A stretch of DNA of 37,699 bases. Source: a virus. Below the pieces are notes generated by a model. The model ran no database searches. It was given only the letters and a program-made list of their open reading frames with translations, and was not told the origin of the DNA. The position numbers and the translations under genes are program-made. Position 1 is the first letter of the stretch, and each line of letters starts with the position of its first letter. Location of the stretch: the IMG/VR virus record IMGVR_UViG_3300042898_000725, positions 1-37,699 of that record; one strand, 5' to 3'. Shown piece after piece: positions 5,302 through 37,699 of the stretch.

Positions 5302-5709
5302 ATGACAATCACACTAACACGCGAGGAAGCGCAGCAGGTGCTGGATGCAATGGAAGCAATGCAGACCTACACACGCGCAGAACGCAAAGGTTTACGGATA
5401 TTTGACGAAGCAATCGAAACCCTCCGCGCCAGACTTGCGCAGCCTGAACCGAAGCCGGTGGCGTGGATGTTGACAGAACTTGATGGCACTCCATTGATTG
5501 ATTGTGGCGATTTGGTTGTTAAGCAGCGCCCAGTTTTAGTAAGCGACAAAACGGACTGCATACCACTCTACACCGCCCCATCACAGCGCGAATGGCAGGG
5601 GCTGACGGATGAGGAACAACTAGAAATTATGAAACAGTTTGGGCCGGGTCAACGTAAATTATTTGCAGATGCCATCGAAGCCAAGCTAAAGGAGAAGAAC
5701 AGTGGATAA
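5302..5709 (+). CDS. Modular early protein of unknown function
   Basis: The start is the ATG at 5302 (GAGG 6 bases upstream), giving 135 residues. The N-terminus MTITLTREEAQQVLDAMEAM is helical. The middle (PKPVAWMLTELDGTPLIDCG) resembles segments frequent in phage early proteins, and the C-terminus is EWQGLTDEEQLEIMKQF followed by FADAIEAKLKEKNSG. The C-terminal module is repeated in the next gene and the N-terminal heptapeptide in the gene at 4954, so it looks like a mosaic. The family is common in phages but its function is unknown. Confidence 0.8.
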   Translation: MTITLTREEAQQVLDAMEAMQTYTRAERKGLRIFDEAIETLRARLAQPEPKPVAWMLTELDGTPLIDCGDLVVKQRPVLVSDKTDCIPLYTAPSQREWQGLTDEEQLEIMKQFGPGQRKLFADAIEAKLKEKNSG

Positions 5710-5920
5710 CTACGTGATTGACGGCGACTTGGTTTTTAGTGACCAGAGTTCCGCATTGAAGTTTTACCGTGAGCAGTATCACAAGAAGAAAGAATGGCAA
5801 GGGCTGACTAATGAAGAAATTCTGGAGGAGTACAGGCAAGCGTATGGCGATGATGGGGACTTGACTGATGTTTATTTTGCCCGCGCCATCGAAGCTAAGT
5901 TGAAAGAGAAGAACACATGA
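5702..5920 (+). CDS. Small protein sharing the C-terminal module of the preceding gene
   Basis: A GTG start at 5702 is preceded by AAGGAGAAGAACA and overlaps the previous gene by 8 bases. The 72-residue product ends with EWQGLTNEEILEEYRQAYGD and FARAIEAKLKEKNT, clearly homologous to the end of its neighbour, while its first 30 residues (MDNYVIDGDLVFSDQSSALK) are unrelated. This indicates duplication of a C-terminal module within the operon. Function unknown. Confidence 0.78.
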   Translation: MDNYVIDGDLVFSDQSSALKFYREQYHKKKEWQGLTNEEILEEYRQAYGDDGDLTDVYFARAIEAKLKEKNT

Positions 5921-6195
5921 GATACCTACTTTTATTATTGGCAGCGCCCGCAATGGCCGCCGCGCCCGACTACCTGACGTACACGAACGACATCAGTGTG
6001 CAGACAGTGTTGACCCAAGACCGTCCTAGCTGGTGCCACGGCATGAAGATGGCCTTTGACATCGACGGGCTAAACCGTGCGTACTATGGCTGCTGGGCCG
6101 CGTCGCAGGGCTTTGCGCACATTGAAATGTTGGACGGCAGCAAGCGTATTATCCCGATCTCTCGATTTAACAAACCCAAGGAGGCAACAAAATGA
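5917..6195 (+). CDS. Exported early protein with signal peptide
   Basis: This 92-residue protein starts MRYLLLLLAAPAMAAAPDYL: a basic residue, a leucine core and an AMA-A cleavage site near residue 15, so a mature periplasmic protein of about 77 residues is expected. The mature part has two cysteines (SWCHGMK and YYGCWAA) that could form a disulphide, and it ends basic. Phage early proteins exported to the periplasm can act in envelope or superinfection functions, but nothing here shows a specific role. It is coupled by ATGA overlaps on both sides. Confidence 0.8.
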   Translation: MRYLLLLLAAPAMAAAPDYLTYTNDISVQTVLTQDRPSWCHGMKMAFDIDGLNRAYYGCWAASQGFAHIEMLDGSKRIIPISRFNKPKEATK

Positions 6196-6338
6196 CTGAC
6201 TTCACCAAATACGAAACGCAGCGCGAAATTCTGATCGACTATCTGCACGTCATGATCGCCCGATCCGACTGGCACGGCGTCTCAGACGTCGCCAACGATC
6301 TGCGTGAACTGGAGGCCGAACAACGTGAAAAGAATTGA
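6192..6338 (+). CDS. 48-residue helical mini-protein
   Basis: The frame begins MTDFTKYETQREILIDYLHV and ends NDLRELEAEQREKN. It starts in an ATGA overlap with the exported protein and has a GGAGG-like site upstream. The product is amphipathic and highly charged, of a kind often seen in phage early operons. Its function is unknown. Confidence 0.7.
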   Translation: MTDFTKYETQREILIDYLHVMIARSDWHGVSDVANDLRELEAEQREKN

Positions 6339-29199: not shown

Positions 29200-29928
29200 T
29201 TAGTCTTTCGCAAATAGTTCAGGCCGTTCCCAATTGCGGCGCATTTTTTCTAGTTCTGGGTACTTTGTAGCTAGTCTGTCTATCGTATCTAATTGGCGGC
29301 GCAAAGTACGGGTGGACATATTTTTTTCTGCCATCTGCCGTGCTGGGGTTGCGGTAGCAAAATATTCGTTAATAATTTCGTAAGGGTCGGTTTGATCGCG
29401 TACCGAAGGCAATTCGCTAAGACGTATGTCAGTCATCATGTCTTCAAATCTATCGCGCGGCATTTGGTCTTTTAATTGTTTTGCAGGATGCGTGCGAAGT
29501 TTTTTCCCCGGCGCCAAATTCATACGTGCGTGTGAAGATTCGTGCAGCATAGTGTGCAACGCATTAAGCGTCTGTTCGGTCGTGGTGTCGCTGCCCATAC
29601 CAATGTAACCATATTTACCGTAAGGTTCCATTAACATAGTGTTAACGCCGTCAGGGGCAAGCGCAATTGTGCGTTTAAAGGTGTCAAATTCACCGGCATT
29701 AGTTTCGCCGCGCGGCATAAAGGTTGTTACTGTTGCTGGTGAAGTGGCTACATACTCGGGAAACTGCGCGCGCATTAGTTCTGGCAGCAAAGCAGAATAA
29801 ACATTAAGCGCGGCTTTGCGGCCTTTTTCTGGGCTACCTACGCTTTTAAACGCGTACAGCCTTTCGTAAGGCGACATGTTTAGCGCATTAGCTGGCGTGG
29901 GTGCGAGCGCGTTCGTTGGCTGTGGCAT
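29200..29928 (-). CDS. Putative zinc metallopeptidase (HExxH) between the terminase genes
   Basis: The 242-residue protein has LHTMLHESSHARMNLAPG, whose HESSH (residues 129-133) fits the HExxH zinc motif. E188 in EIINEYFATATPARQ is a possible third ligand, as in gluzincins. No signal peptide or membrane span is present. It overlaps the small terminase gene by 41 bases and ends 3 bases before the large terminase start. A sampled 60-base line is about 47% GC against 63% for a line in the large terminase, so it may be an insertion. Roles could be maturation of a virion protein or attack on a host protein; neither is shown. An internal ATG at 29877 is an alternative start. Confidence 0.75.
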   Translation of the reverse strand: MPQPTNALAPTPANALNMSPYERLYAFKSVGSPEKGRKAALNVYSALLPELMRAQFPEYVATSPATVTTFMPRGETNAGEFDTFKRTIALAPDGVNTMLMEPYGKYGYIGMGSDTTTEQTLNALHTMLHESSHARMNLAPGKKLRTHPAKQLKDQMPRDRFEDMMTDIRLSELPSVRDQTDPYEIINEYFATATPARQMAEKNMSTRTLRRQLDTIDRLATKYPELEKMRRNWERPELFAKD

Positions 29929-30343
29929 TTTCCAGATACTCCGGTTTCTGTTCGGTGATCAGCCCATCGATGACGCGTTCCTGCGCCTGTTGCAGCGCCT
30001 GCGTGATGCTGATCTTGTTCGTGATGTCCACGCTGATCTCCTGACGTGCTGTCCAGCCGTGGACGTGCTGCAGGATAGCCAGCGCCGCTTTGGCGTCGCC
30101 AGACCGGGCAGCTTCTCTCAGGTGGGCGCTGGCCTCGATCTCGGAGTCAGCGCGGCCCTTCATCGCAGCCATGTCCGCAGCAGGATCCAGTTCGCACAGC
30201 TGCCTAAACTCGGTGGGCAGCATGCCAGCAGCCAGCGCTAACGAGTCGCCTTTCAGTCCAAGCGCAGCAGCGTCATAGATCGCCTGGAGGCGTGACTCAG
30301 TCGCTTCCACTTTACGCGGGGTGAATGGGATTGATTTGAACAT
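29888..30343 (-). CDS. terS: Terminase small subunit
   Basis: The 151-residue protein has a helix-turn-helix-like N-terminus (ATESRLQAIYDAAALGLKGD, then SLALAAGMLPTEFRQLCELD), a central helical EIEASAHLREAARSGDAKAA stretch and a C-terminal tail. This matches phage small terminases that recognise the packaging site and stimulate the large subunit. It is the first gene of the late operon and borders the repeat-rich control region. Confidence 0.85.
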   Translation of the reverse strand: MFKSIPFTPRKVEATESRLQAIYDAAALGLKGDSLALAAGMLPTEFRQLCELDPAADMAAMKGRADSEIEASAHLREAARSGDAKAALAILQHVHGWTARQEISVDITNKISITQALQQAQERVIDGLITEQKPEYLENATANERARTHAS

Positions 30344-30359
30344 GGCTGCATATTAGCGC

Positions 30360-30389
30360 ATTTGTGGGTCATGTTGGTTACCCACAAAT
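30360..30389. repeat. Inverted repeat upstream of the small terminase gene
   Basis: ATTTGTGGGT (30360-30369) and ACCCACAAAT (30380-30389) form perfect 10-bp arms around a 10-base spacer, 17 bases before the small terminase start. It uses the GTGGGT core of the iteron family, so it may be the operator through which the iteron-binding protein controls late transcription. Confidence 0.75.
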
Positions 30390-30468
30390 AGTTGAATTAA
30401 AAAAATAAAAAAAATTGTTTGCGGAACCTCCGTTTTCGAGACCGGCCAGCCGCCGGCCCCCCACCCCC

Positions 30469-30607
30469 CAGGTTAGTAAGCACTCACTTACAGTTGCTAG
30501 GCTGACAAGTTAGTAAGCACTAACTAACCAGGTTAGTGAGTACTCACTAACGGTTGCTAGCCTGGCAAGTTAGTGGTCACTAACATATCAGGTTAGTGGT
30601 CACTAAC
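30469..30607. repeat. 60-bp tandem repeats containing five GTTAGT/ACTAAC dyads
   Basis: Unit 1 (30469-30528) and unit 2 (30529-30588) are 60 bases each with 12 differences (80% identity). A partial third copy covers 30589-30607. Each full unit has two dyads separated by a GTTGCTAG(G/C)CTG(A/G)CAA spacer. Dyads lie at 30472-30491, 30509-30528, 30532-30551 (perfect 20-bp palindrome), 30569-30584 and 30592-30607 (both GTTAGTGGTCACTAAC). Centre spacings alternate between about 36 and 23 bases. This is an array of binding sites for a dimeric protein. Confidence 0.9.
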
Positions 30608-30630
30608 TATTAGCAAACTGCTATCAAATC

Positions 30631-30639
30631 TGTGGATAA
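30631..30639 (-). promoter_or_regulatory. Perfect DnaA box
   Basis: TGTGGATAA is the complement of TTATCCACA, the high-affinity DnaA box. It follows the dyad array by 23 bases and precedes a T-run. One 9-base match alone can arise by chance, but its place between two repeat arrays supports an origin. Confidence 0.7.
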
Positions 30640-30704
30640 CTTTTTTGTTGCCATTTTGAGATGTGGGTCATGTGGGTTATTCTCGATGACCCACAATTTT
30701 TCTG

Positions 30705-30775
30705 TTTAAAATCAAGGGTTTAGGGCGTTTTGCCCTTTTTGCGCCAGAAAAAAGCCCTTTAAAATCAAGGGTTTA
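30705..30775 (+). repeat. 18-bp perfect direct repeat pair
   Basis: TTTAAAATCAAGGGTTTA occurs at 30705-30722 and again at 30758-30775, 53 bases apart (about five helical turns). A weak hairpin AGGGC/GCCCT with T residues lies between them. Role unknown. Confidence 0.8.
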
Positions 30776-30841
30776 AAGCGTGGGTCATTTAGGGCCCTTT
30801 TTTTCAAGTCGTCGGCTGCGTACGGCGTGGGGCATGGGGGG

Positions 30842-30876
30842 CTATACAGCAAACTACTGTATAGAACTACTGTATA
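30842..30876. repeat. CTGTATAG repeats: one inverted pair and one direct pair
   Basis: CTATACAG (30842-30849) and CTGTATAG (30857-30864) form 8-bp inverted arms. AACTACTGTATA occurs at 30852-30863 and 30865-30876, one base apart. These may be sites for another regulator. Confidence 0.75.
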
Positions 30877-31041
30877 AAATATAAATTCTAGCTTTACAGA
30901 TTTAATGACCCACATGACCCACAAAATGCCAAAAGCTAGTAGCAGACTAGGTTATCGCGTGGGTCATCCGCGCCATTTTCATGACCCACAAACTGCCCAA
31001 ATGACCCACAAAAAAACCCAAAAATAAATGCAAAACATTCC

Positions 31042-31069
31042 TTGACATTTATTTTGTTGTCGCTATAAT
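31042..31069 (+). promoter_or_regulatory. Consensus sigma-70 early promoter
   Basis: A perfect -35 TTGACA (31042-31047), a 16-base spacer and a perfect -10 TATAAT (31064-31069) point right. Transcription should start near 31076, 60 bases before the first early gene. Six of the nine ATGACCCAC sites lie in the 270 bases upstream, so it may be controlled by the same protein. Confidence 0.9.
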
Positions 31070-33510: not shown

Positions 33511-35826
33511 TCATTTGACCAGTCGCACCGCTGATGGTGCCGGTGTTTCCTCGACCATGCGGCGCAGCTCTGACTTTGTGGCCGACTTGGCCAGCTCTGG
33601 CGCGCAGATGACGTGCTTGCGGGCATCGAAGTCGCGCGATCGCAGCCGCCCCATGTCGACCCAGCCGGCTTCTTTCAGCGCGTGCAAGAGTGCCTGCTGA
33701 ACGACTCGCGTGCCCATCGGCGCCCCACCCTGCAATCGATCGCAGAGGGTATAGAACGGCGCGGCCACTACGCCGGTCGAGAATTCGCCCAAGCGGCGCT
33801 CGATCATCTCGACAAGGTACGACTCAGCCGTTGACCTGCCCTGCTCGACCATGATGATTTTCGCTTCGGTCAGTGGCGGGGTTGCGCTCGGATTAAACCG
33901 TGACACGTCACGCTGATACAGCCAGCCGGCGGCCACAGCCAGCCCGCCAGCCTTGTACCAATCCCAGATCGCGCGCGATTCTGGCTCGGTCATCCTCGGC
34001 GCTTCGGAGTACGTTACGAACCATCGGCGGTCATCCCCCGATAACGATATCGGCACACGCTCATTGGAAAACGCCAGCACAAAGATGCGATTCAATGCCT
34101 GATACGGGTGTAAACCCTTGCGGTTGACTTGCAAGAAGTCCGGCGGCGCTGCAATCACGGGTTTCAGGTGATTCTCAAGCGCGCGGCGGTCTTTCGCTTC
34201 GCTCTGGCGCAGCTCTTCAAAGACCATCACTTCAGACTCGTAAGCATAACCCCACTGGGATTGAATTTCCTCATTGCGCACAATTGACACGTTTGAGAGC
34301 GCTTCCCCGCCGATGCCCCAGAGAAACGGCTGCCACATGGTGTCTTTACCGCTACCAGGGTGACCGATATGCAGCACAGCGTGATTGATCTTGCGGTTTG
34401 GGTGCTGGAGCTTATGCGCCATGACGTCCAGCACATGCTCACGCTCAACCGCGTCCGGTATCATGCGCGCCACATGGTCGAGCCACGGCTGCGCATTGCC
34501 AGGCTTAACCGCTGGCCGGTGGTTGATCCATCGATTGCCGTACACTTGACCCTCACGCGATACCAGCACGGTTTCGCCGGCAGCGTACGTGATGCCGGTA
34601 ATTGTCAACGCGTCTTTGGCCTGACGGTTTTCATCAAAGCAAATTGACGCCTCAATACGGCGCTTGCCCGACTTTGTCGGGTGAATCGAATAGCAGGTGA
34701 CATGCCGAAAGAGCGCGTTAAAAGTAGACCGAGCGATTTCCCGACGATCAGTCATATCAAAAAACGAATCCTCGTTCTGGATGTACGCAAAGCGCTTGTA
34801 CCAGCCCTCTTTTTCGACCCGATCGAGCTGCTTTTTCTCGACTTCGGCGATCACTTCCGCGCCCTTGTCGGGATACTCGGCAGTCGGCTGCAGTTTGGAT
34901 AGCGCCGTGTCCATCGCCTGCGCGAGTAGCTCTTCACGCAAGCCTGGCGAGTGCTTTGGCCCACCATTGGCGGCGACCCAGTCTAAAAACGCATGCGAGT
35001 CAAAATCCACGCAGTGCGAATGCAGGCAGCGGTACGACCGCGTCGATGGACTGTAGCCGCCCTCGGGGTTGCCATCGGTGTGCTCGTCCTTGTTGGGGCA
35101 GATGACGCCGGCCCACCCGCGAGAATTCGGCGCCGACAGCAGCACGCCCTGACCGGATAGCCACGCCAGCACGTCATCAGCACCATCGTCCGACAGCCGG
35201 ATAGGGCGCACGCCCAGCGATGACGGCTCGGAAGGGGTGACGCCCAGCGCCGCGCATATCTCGGCCAGTGTGTACTCACGCTCGGGGTGAAACTCGGTCA
35301 GCTGGGCAGCGAAGTTATCGCGCTCTGGCTTGATATTAATCGACCCTGGCAGTCGGAAGTTACGCACGGCGTTGTTGGCGCCTGGGTCGCAGTAACCGGC
35401 CTTGATAATCGCATCAATCGCAGCGGCGTACTCACCCTTGGTCGGCTGCTCGGAGAATGCGTAACCCCACTGGAACGAGCCGGCAGACGTCTCGATAATC
35501 CAAGTCGGCGGCAGGGGCGGGATGTTGGGCGCCTTCTCGGGATCGCCCACGTCATCTAACACCATGACCAGAACGTAATCGCAGTTGTCTTTGGATGCCG
35601 ATACGTGCCCGTCCTTGAACCGATCGACAATGAATGACGCGGTGTTACCGTAGATCGCCCAATCGGGTTTGGTCGGATAGTCGGGCAGGTAGGCCGGCCA
35701 TGTACAGATGACCGCGCCATCGGGGTGCAGCTGGATCTGACCGTTTTTGAGTTTGGGCTTCTGACGCACGATCAGTGCAGTCTCACCTTGTGGTGCCAAT
35801 TTGGTATAAAATTCGAGGAAATTCAT
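33511..35826 (-). CDS. Primase-helicase: AEP-type primase, zinc finger and SF3-type (DUF5906) helicase
   Basis: In this 771-residue protein, residues 1-185 look like an archaeo-eukaryotic primase domain: VLVMVLDDVGD with D91/D92, SAGSFQWGYAFSE, and NNAVRNFRLPGSINIKPE. Residues 240-275 carry a likely zinc finger (C243, H249, C267, H271/C272). The C-terminal half is a superfamily 3/DUF5906 helicase with Walker A GHPGSGKDT (488-496), Walker B VMVFEEL and the LAFSNERVPISLSGDDRRWF sensor/arginine region. It should unwind DNA and prime synthesis for the family A polymerase directly upstream. Confidence 0.9.
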   Translation of the reverse strand: MNFLEFYTKLAPQGETALIVRQKPKLKNGQIQLHPDGAVICTWPAYLPDYPTKPDWAIYGNTASFIVDRFKDGHVSASKDNCDYVLVMVLDDVGDPEKAPNIPPLPPTWIIETSAGSFQWGYAFSEQPTKGEYAAAIDAIIKAGYCDPGANNAVRNFRLPGSINIKPERDNFAAQLTEFHPEREYTLAEICAALGVTPSEPSSLGVRPIRLSDDGADDVLAWLSGQGVLLSAPNSRGWAGVICPNKDEHTDGNPEGGYSPSTRSYRCLHSHCVDFDSHAFLDWVAANGGPKHSPGLREELLAQAMDTALSKLQPTAEYPDKGAEVIAEVEKKQLDRVEKEGWYKRFAYIQNEDSFFDMTDRREIARSTFNALFRHVTCYSIHPTKSGKRRIEASICFDENRQAKDALTITGITYAAGETVLVSREGQVYGNRWINHRPAVKPGNAQPWLDHVARMIPDAVEREHVLDVMAHKLQHPNRKINHAVLHIGHPGSGKDTMWQPFLWGIGGEALSNVSIVRNEEIQSQWGYAYESEVMVFEELRQSEAKDRRALENHLKPVIAAPPDFLQVNRKGLHPYQALNRIFVLAFSNERVPISLSGDDRRWFVTYSEAPRMTEPESRAIWDWYKAGGLAVAAGWLYQRDVSRFNPSATPPLTEAKIIMVEQGRSTAESYLVEMIERRLGEFSTGVVAAPFYTLCDRLQGGAPMGTRVVQQALLHALKEAGWVDMGRLRSRDFDARKHVICAPELAKSATKSELRRMVEETPAPSAVRLVK

Positions 35827-35875: not shown

Positions 35876-37699
35876 TTCCGTAACGCGTCATTGTTTCTAC
35901 TTCAGCGGACAAAGGCAGTCCAGCCGCCCAATCGGGCGGGGTACACATCACTTGCTTTAGGGTATTGGGTGCATCAGGGTCGGCGGTCTCCAGCACAATT
36001 TCATCATGCACATGCAGCACGACATCATCGAGCTGGCGTAAAGCGTGCCGTAGCAGATCGTTGGCGACTGCCTGCGTTATGTTCTCACAGGCGAGCCCGC
36101 GCCACAAGCGGGCACGCGGCCATTCGGTTGCATCGGCTGCAGGTTTCCATGCGGCCTTGACGTACGTGATCTCGTCACCCTCAAACTTAGCAAATGGATA
36201 GCACAGGATGCGCCCGCTGGGCAGCGCGTACCAGAGATGCTGCTTATCGTACAGGTACGTCACCCGACCGGCGGTAAACTCGCGGCATGGGTTCCTGAGC
36301 GCCCGCGTGTACGCCTCCTCGAGTTTCGTCCAGTAGCGCACGGCCCATGCGTTTGAGCGGCGCCATGCGTCCACAATCCGGCGCGAATCGGACTCGGCCA
36401 TGATGACGCCGTAATTGCGCCCCATCGCACTGAAGGCGCCGATCGAGCCACCAAAACCCAGTGACAAGATGGCGACCTTGCCGATCTGGCGCTGATCTTT
36501 GTCTACGCTATCCTCAGGCACGCGGTAGATGCCCGCCGCTTCACGCTTGTAAATGTCGCGGCCATCACGGAAGACCTGCAAGACCTCGTCGGCCTGTGGG
36601 TCGGCTGACGCCCAAGCTGTCACGCGTGCCTCGACTGCCGACCAGTCGGCGACCACGAACTGCTTACCGGGTGCGGGTATCAGTGCGGGCCGGAGCATTC
36701 CTTTGAGAACATCTGTAATGCGTTTTCCAAATCTTGGGGTGATGCTGTGGCCTCTGACCATAGCGTGCCTAACATCATCTGGCTCTGCGGCACACTTGCG
36801 CGTGAAGTTGTGAACTTGCGCGCCATAGCTTGAAGCACGTCCGGTGGCAGAGCCTCCTGCAAATACGAAAGCACCTCGTACTCGGTGATCGTCTTCATCT
36901 GCCAAGCCCGCAAGGCGGCTGAACTTCGCAACTGACGACGCCCAGAGGTCATCCGCGCATTGAATGACGTCCGCAACATGGGCCGGAATTTCTTCATGGT
37001 TTTCCTCGGCAAAAGCTAACAAATTAGCGCGTACTGACTTGTCGATACTGTACTTCTGCTCGCCGTCCTTGTACACCTCCATCATCTTCAGCGCCTGCGG
37101 CCCAACTCTGTCCATGACCCACTGTTTCATCTTGGGGCTCCTGACGGACTTGATCTCGCCCTTAGTCAGGTCGGCAACCAGCGTCTCGATCTCTTCAAGC
37201 TCAACAGATGCGTAGCGTACCGCTGCGTGAGCCAGTGGCAGGTCAAGCAGCACGCCCCGGTCGTTGATGCGCTCGTTCGTGTGATAGTCGGCTAGCTCCT
37301 GATCGGACAGTGGCCGCATGGCCTGGCTGACTGCGCGCATGGTTCTGACGTCCTGCTCGCAGTACGCAATCATCTCAGCTACCAGTTTGGGGTCTTCATT
37401 AAACGATCCATCTGCTCGAGGGATAGACAACGCACGAATAAGTTGCGCGCCTCGGTGGTCTTTTCGCATGTTGCTGCTAATCGCCCGTCCGACGTCTTCG
37501 AGAGACCCAGGCAAGCAGTTAGCACGCGCTTGTGTCGCGGTGCAGTAGAACTGCTCGAGTTGAAAGTTACACTGTAGGACGTACCAAAAGATGAGGCGCT
37601 CGAAGGCGGCGTTATGCGCGCGTATTTGCCCTGTGTGCTGACGTACCACATCGGGGAACGGTTGATCGGGAGTCCAGGTGACAACCTCATCGTCGTCAA
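35871..37699 (-). CDS. DNA polymerase family A with 3'-5' exonuclease domain (N-terminus cut by the window end)
   Basis: The frame is open to the window edge and lacks a proper start; a GTG at 37649 is internal, since DDDEVVTWTPDQPFPD lies before it in the same frame and belongs to the protein. Exonuclease motifs are RAHNAAFERL and AYCEQDVRTM. Polymerase motif A is VVADWSAVEARV, motif B is RQIGKVAILSLGFGGS, and motif C is LHVHDEIVLE. The segment TGRASSYGAQVHNF is the template-binding region. Numbered from that GTG, key residues are D335, H548, D549 and E550. The missing start (IDFES motif) is at the left end of the window. It is the replicative polymerase of the phage. Confidence 0.93.
   Translation of the reverse strand, partial: DDDEVVTWTPDQPFPDVVRQHTGQIRAHNAAFERLIFWYVLQCNFQLEQFYCTATQARANCLPGSLEDVGRAISSNMRKDHRGAQLIRALSIPRADGSFNEDPKLVAEMIAYCEQDVRTMRAVSQAMRPLSDQELADYHTNERINDRGVLLDLPLAHAAVRYASVELEEIETLVADLTKGEIKSVRSPKMKQWVMDRVGPQALKMMEVYKDGEQKYSIDKSVRANLLAFAEENHEEIPAHVADVIQCADDLWASSVAKFSRLAGLADEDDHRVRGAFVFAGGSATGRASSYGAQVHNFTRKCAAEPDDVRHAMVRGHSITPRFGKRITDVLKGMLRPALIPAPGKQFVVADWSAVEARVTAWASADPQADEVLQVFRDGRDIYKREAAGIYRVPEDSVDKDQRQIGKVAILSLGFGGSIGAFSAMGRNYGVIMAESDSRRIVDAWRRSNAWAVRYWTKLEEAYTRALRNPCREFTAGRVTYLYDKQHLWYALPSGRILCYPFAKFEGDEITYVKAAWKPAADATEWPRARLWRGLACENITQAVANDLLRHALRQLDDVVLHVHDEIVLETADPDAPNTLKQVMCTPPDWAAGLPLSAEVETMTRYGK

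Follow-up and report, generated by a model that had tools for sequence, protein, structure and literature searches.

The alpha protein of P4 unites primase, helicase and origin-binding domain in a single polypeptide, and the P4 origin carries iterons. We know of no code linking wing residues to iteron bases for P4 alpha and, to our knowledge, work on how origin specificity evolves in initiators has mostly dealt with single elements. In staphylococci, the C-terminal domain is described as the part of SaPI Rep that recognizes the origin iterons, and Cch2 of SCCmec as binding direct repeats through its C-terminal part (PMC7581432). The origin-binding domain of P4 alpha is given as a winged helix in PMC10516667, which also contrasts the tail domain of NrS-1 polymerase, as a different fold, with that of the ASFV protein, whose tail is a winged helix. 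NrS-1 polymerase is described as recognizing an 8-nt sequence that has two copies in its genome (PMC7102993). Covariation between initiator and origin has been described for the PLE satellites, where changes in the origin go along with changes in the DNA-binding domain of RepA and a phage origin-directed nuclease was proposed as the driver (PMC8263062), and for begomoviruses, where individual Rep residues vary together with individual bases of the iterons and mark out replication groups (PMC2974675).

The locus analyzed here lies in a virus record of 37,699 bases, examined in full (the window). Like SaPI Rep, SaPI5 PriRep1 and Cch2 as described in PMC7581432, its primase-helicase is predicted to be a self-loading helicase with C-terminal iteron recognition and, by description, it can be likened to P4 alpha in having primase, helicase and winged helix in one protein. 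However, P4 is a satellite, unlike the phage of the window, and in the staphylococcal SaPI and SCCmec elements the origin immediately follows the helicase gene, whereas the putative phage origin is ~2.5 kb from the helicase gene, beside the terminase genes, and its specificity varies among the close relatives that make up one group. NrS-1 polymerase, a PrimPol-helicase, was the best structural match of the window protein, but has only two recognition copies in place of an iteron cluster. The PLE initiator differs in being the RepA_N protein of a satellite with an N-terminal DNA-binding domain. As in the iteron-related domain of begomovirus Rep, initiator residues covary with iteron bases, although Rep is an unrelated, rolling-circle protein of ssDNA plant viruses. 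Each element is thus already known; none of the open-licence papers listed in our literature searches describes a wing-iteron code that has diversified across a group of phages.

On its minus strand, the window encodes the terminase large subunit, a P22-like portal, and head and connector proteins, followed at the right end by a family-A-type polymerase and the primase-helicase; a NUMOD4/HNH homing-type endonuclease (57-536, minus) was also noted near the exonuclease gene. A short plus-strand early block starts after 31136. Between this rightward block and a leftward presumed small-terminase gene, named from position alone since its protein had no family match, lies a 0.8-kb iteron region; features in and beside it are the following:

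29888-30343, minus: presumed small-terminase gene (position alone)
30360-30389, no strand: 10-bp inverted repeat with perfect arms (30360-30369 and 30380-30389), including the terminase-proximal iteron 30364-30372 (minus)
30631-30639, minus: TTATCCACA, adjoining the left pair, read from the sequence
30663-30680, minus: left tandem iteron pair of the core (30663-30671 exact; 30672-30680 ATAACCCAC, one mismatch)
30681-30904, no strand: core spacer, AT-rich (58% AT), 224 bp
30686-30694, plus: iteron in the window-specific part of the spacer
30780-30788, minus: iteron in the window-specific part of the spacer
30827-30835, minus: degenerate iteron ATGCCCCAC
30905-30922, plus: right tandem iteron pair of the core
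30959-30967, minus: iteron in opposite orientation, a constant 45 bp after 30914, type-switching in relatives
30981-30989, plus: accessory iteron
31001-31009, plus: accessory iteron, poorly conserved among relatives
31042-31069, plus: early promoter, 12/12 sigma-70 consensus with 16-bp spacer, free of iteron overlap

A preliminary description of this DNA had reported nine copies of a 9-mer, here ATGACCCAC, in both orientations within about 650 bases. Nine exact copies were indeed found in 30364-31009 (four minus, five plus), and frequent random copies elsewhere do not occur: the whole window holds 10, the tenth being at 37114 within the polymerase ORF, compared to a mean of 0.26 and a maximum of 2 in shuffles. 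The ATGACCCAC cluster is a real, strongly non-random feature. The arrangement first described was also borne out, with two copies (30905 and 30914) adjoining without a gap, one (30364) in the inverted repeat, with 20 bp between this copy and the ATG of the presumed small-terminase gene, and six (30780, 30905, 30914, 30959, 30981 and 31001) within 270 bp upstream of the early promoter. A search allowing one mismatch added the sites at 30672 and 30827, the former making up, with 30663, a second tandem pair which the description had overlooked, along with the reader protein and the switching of iteron type.

The geometry of the cluster was compared using exact copies in 129 non-redundant phages. 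Same-strand sites were spaced 9 bp apart in 106 site pairs, while any other distance up to 40 bp accounted for no more than 4. Divergent tandem pairs (minus, then plus), counted where both core pairs were 40-300 bp apart, were present in 77 of the 129 phages, and convergent ones in 18. The shared core consists of two tandem pairs with 9-bp spacing, in opposite orientation, flanking an AT-rich spacer (AT content 0.58 versus 0.47 for the region, 74 cores). In relatives the median spacer length is 99 bp; the spacer of the window is longer (224 bp) because of extra sequence carrying the iterons at 30686 and 30780; a 24-bp direct repeat (30705-30781, TTTAAAATCAAGGGTTTA core) was also seen in this window-specific part. 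Several short repeats with a fixed geometry next to an AT-rich segment, one mark of an iteron-type origin, are thus present. GC skew had no clear turning point at the site, and TTATCCACA, which we take to be the DnaA-box consensus, is not a general part of the core, recurring at a near-fixed distance in just 16 of 77 cores. A 60-bp duplicated unit (30469-30609) holds five GTTAGTnnnnACTAAC-type palindromic repeats, which probably have another reader, since the same palindrome class accompanies different iterons in relatives.

The 18-base tandem form of ATGACCCAC was found in 83 IMG/VR stretches; in 78 of 86 loci with the 18-mer, a homologue of this phage group's terminase, helicase or polymerase was also present. 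Of the 408 exact 9-mers in the 86 loci, 403 lay within 1 kb of a tandem pair. Most of 80 terminase relatives lacked the 18-mer, though many were 93-99% identical in the large terminase, and many of those with the upstream region available carried another 9-mer of the same skeleton. At the same place, close relatives had ATTGTCCAC, ATTGCCCAC, ATAGCCAAC, ATGACTAAC or ATGACGTGC, and more distant iterons were ATGGCACAC, ATTACCCGC, ATTGCCTAC, ATTGCTTAC and ATTGACTAC. A large group of uncultured phages has a diversified iteron system, of which ATGACCCAC is the allele found in the window. When relatives were aligned to the window, sites 30663, 30672, 30914 and 30959 switched type in register, while 30364 and 31001 did not switch with type; phages with ATAGCCAAC core iterons still had GTGGGCAA or GTGGGTCA at the terminase-proximal site. 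The sequence class of the inverted repeat at 30360-30389 stayed constant while the core iterons switched, and this repeat may have a reader distinct from the helicase.

Whole-protein identity was uninformative about iteron type, because ATGACCCAC spans distant phages. Helicases ~96-97% identical but accompanied by ATTGTCCAC versus ATGACGTGC had a common block of differences at residues 728-739 (four comparisons, partly reusing the same phages). Columns of each candidate protein were then compared between the 25 closest pairs of different iteron type and the 28 closest pairs of the same type, in 64 non-redundant phages that had been retrieved through their terminase or helicase homology and not by iteron (set 1). 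Helicase column 729 ranked first of 770, changing in 20/25 versus 3/28 pairs (p = 2.9e-7, the pairs not being fully independent), followed by 734 (18/25 versus 4/28), 736 and 740, and none of 300 shuffles of pair labels matched the top value. Iteron types were called mechanically, on a skeleton picked after the first set had been seen, and two of the 25 different-type pairs were miscalls (L070, L210). In 65 later-fetched phages (set 2), 729 was again first, of 753 columns (19/32 versus 2/26, p = 3.6e-5), with 734 second and 728 third.

The same test speaks to the possibility that the small terminase subunit binds the cluster as a pac or cosB-like packaging start. Although the presumed small-terminase gene begins 20 bp from the first copy and iteron clusters adjoin this gene in relatives, its product, assigned by position only, did not covary with site type (minimum p = 0.11 over 149 columns, 24 versus 28 pairs). 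Presumed small terminases up to 98.7% identical accompany different iterons, and the terminase-proximal copy is the non-switching one, making a packaging start extremely improbable. Nothing tracked iteron type in the large terminase (minimum p = 0.013 over 511 columns) or the polymerase (minimum p = 0.02 over 605 columns) either, and on the column test all three proteins were rejected as iteron readers.

It was also considered that the sites are operators of a repressor or activator for divergent early and late promoters, with any origin elsewhere. The cluster does lie between divergently transcribed blocks, with iterons before a strong promoter, and an array of such form would suit a regulator. 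However, the early promoter, a perfect consensus whose -35 box is 32 bp past the last iteron, is overlapped by no site. None of the early genes tested is a general reader, because their homologues are too patchy among the 129 phages: the first early protein (31136) has homologues in 2 of them and the other tested early genes in 13 to 50, compared with 129/129 for the helicase, whose presence follows from the selection. As the protein found by covariation is a replication protein, we regard operators of this kind as improbable, while autoregulation by the helicase itself is possible. In the preliminary description, it had been suggested that one protein could control origin firing, early genes and late genes. 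What stands of this are the iterons, a probable origin and, from covariation, a single reader, but not the early-gene control, given the site-free promoter, nor the late-gene control, since the terminase-proximal copy does not track the reader. The sequence comparisons indicate that one phage protein very probably reads the iterons, and the helicase is the candidate:

33511-35826, minus: primase-helicase, 771 aa, proposed iteron-binding initiator with a PrimPol/RepB-like N-terminus, a DUF5906 SF3-type helicase and a C-terminal winged helix
33514-33864, minus: predicted C-terminal winged-helix domain, residues 655-771
33607-33651, minus: wing, residues 726-740 (GRLRSRDFDARKHVI), with residue 729 at 33640-33642

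An archaeo-eukaryotic-type primase domain was found at the N-terminus in structure matches to S-2L PrimPol (Z 14.3, residues 1-197) and RepB' primase (Z 12.0, residues 1-204), the Pfam RepB_primase match being weak and below cut-off. The D5/SF3-type helicase core was recovered with PF19263 at 43.6 bits (cut-off 27.6). The nearest whole-protein folds were the C-terminal region of NrS-1 (6k9c, Z 21.9; E 2.9e-14) and the SaPI5 primase-helicase (Z 17.1), of which PriRep1 fits the model over residues 426-769. The full 771-residue model had a mean pLDDT of 81, and a model of residues 655-771 reached 93-96 around the wing; both agree on a helix at 710-719, a strand at 723-728, a loop at 729-736 and a strand at 737-741, and in these models the predicted loop is the wing of the winged helix. 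Residues 655-771 alone gave weak matches (best Z 6.1), largely to winged-helix proteins, RFX5 among them, and Foldseek with this domain gave no match below E 0.001. The P4 alpha origin-binding domain was absent among the fold matches listed, which excludes nothing.

Since helicase and iterons lie within ~2.5 kb and these phages recombine, the covariation could reflect shared ancestry or co-transfer of neighboring DNA, with no contact between wing and iteron. With neighbors of <90% N-terminal identity in set 1, the wing predicted iteron type for 84%, where chance would give 21% and residues 1-690 gave 25%. The segment just ahead of the wing (residues 690-725) predicted it for just 22%, which argues that the link is not co-transfer of the gene end. 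Wing prediction was weaker in set 2 (48-65% versus 29-54% for the N-terminus). The intervening genes (GP88, families 14 and 20) shared type poorly even at high identity. Covariation was repeated in the second set and also on a helicase tree of 120 phages, where a parsimony count assigned 17 of the 32 inferred iteron changes to the 29 branches along which the residue class at 729 changed (p = 3.3e-10). We therefore consider ancestry or co-transfer very unlikely as the whole account. On the same tree, residue 206, far from the wing, co-changed without explanation (9/12 changes, p = 8e-7).

From the calculated clustering, core geometry, wing-iteron covariation with its replication in new phages, and fold prediction, we think it highly probable that the cluster serves as a replication origin, with a self-loading initiator of the PrimPol-SF3 type as its reader and the wing as the switch of specificity. 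By analogy, P4 alpha, SaPI Rep and NrS-1 polymerase would be the best models for how this initiator works. Primase-helicase subunits would bind the 9-bp iterons through the C-terminal winged helix, two per tandem pair, and the AT-rich spacer would melt. Because the pairs point opposite ways around this spacer, this arrangement may allow two helicase rings to load and to fire bidirectionally. Base specificity would reside in wing residues 728-740, above all 729 and 734, so that a change in the wing would entail a change in the iterons, and related phages would form distinct replication-specificity groups because their iterons change with the wing.

We tentatively suggest a hypervariable origin-specificity system, in which the 15-residue wing and its matched 9-bp iterons repeatedly co-switch by mutation and recombination, giving many compatibility groups in one freshwater phage population. 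The selective pressure could be escape from origin readers, such as co-infecting relatives, satellites or an origin-directed nuclease. For the PLE satellites the proposed driver is the ICP1 nuclease Odn, which mimics RepA, but no such chimera, with the winged helix fused elsewhere, was found here among 459 sequences and 385 domain matches. Four of the 385 matches fell outside recognized helicase ORFs; all four were 115-142 residues long, stood at the start of a fetched stretch and were read as truncated helicase ends. If real, the system would define replication groups in abundant uncultured phages, suggest a hidden conflict selecting for origin change, and supply matched orthogonal initiator-origin pairs.

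With more than 100 natural variants of one architecture in which wing and iterons co-vary, the recognition code becomes readable and can be tested base by base. It is conceivable, if somewhat doubtful, that these data yield the first readable residue-to-base code for a winged-helix initiator recognizing DNA by its wing. In the 129 phages, helicase residue 729 and iteron bases 6-9 were paired as follows:

Lys729: CCAC in 51 of 54
Arg729: CCAC in 5 of 5
His729: ACAC in 14 of 16
Thr729: CTAC in 5 of 5
Met729: TAAC in 3 of 3
Asn729: GTGC in 4 of 5
Gly729: CCGC in 3 of 5
Ala729 (n = 35), ambiguous: CAAC in 10, CTAC in 10, TTAC in 6, CCAC in 5, others in 4

With Arg729, the window falls into the ATGACCCAC group. 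Pairing of basic residues with a CC step (GG on the complementary strand), and of apolar ones with A/T-rich steps, is what would be expected of base contacts. Exceptions were inspected with a fixed-geometry core caller, which found 81 of 359 loci at the score used and served this purpose alone. Three phages (L113, L282 and L294) had CCTAC at the core position, matching the prediction from wing class. A further three, fetched by the 18-mer (L112, L151 and L159), had an Ala729 wing with ATGACCCAC and are unexplained. L052 is a true exception, combining a ATAGCCAAC-type wing with ATGACCCAC in the early-side core pair; its origin (5500-6330) is a hybrid, with ATAGCCAAC-like sites elsewhere beside the ATGACCCAC pair, possibly a recombinant caught in transition. 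Among related contigs, some fall into bins of Rhodoferax and of other bacteria from freshwater; two contigs with the helicase, L245 and L243, belong to one Rhodoferax metagenome bin, L245 carrying nine ATTGTCCAC copies, which is a mere hint at host or habitat.
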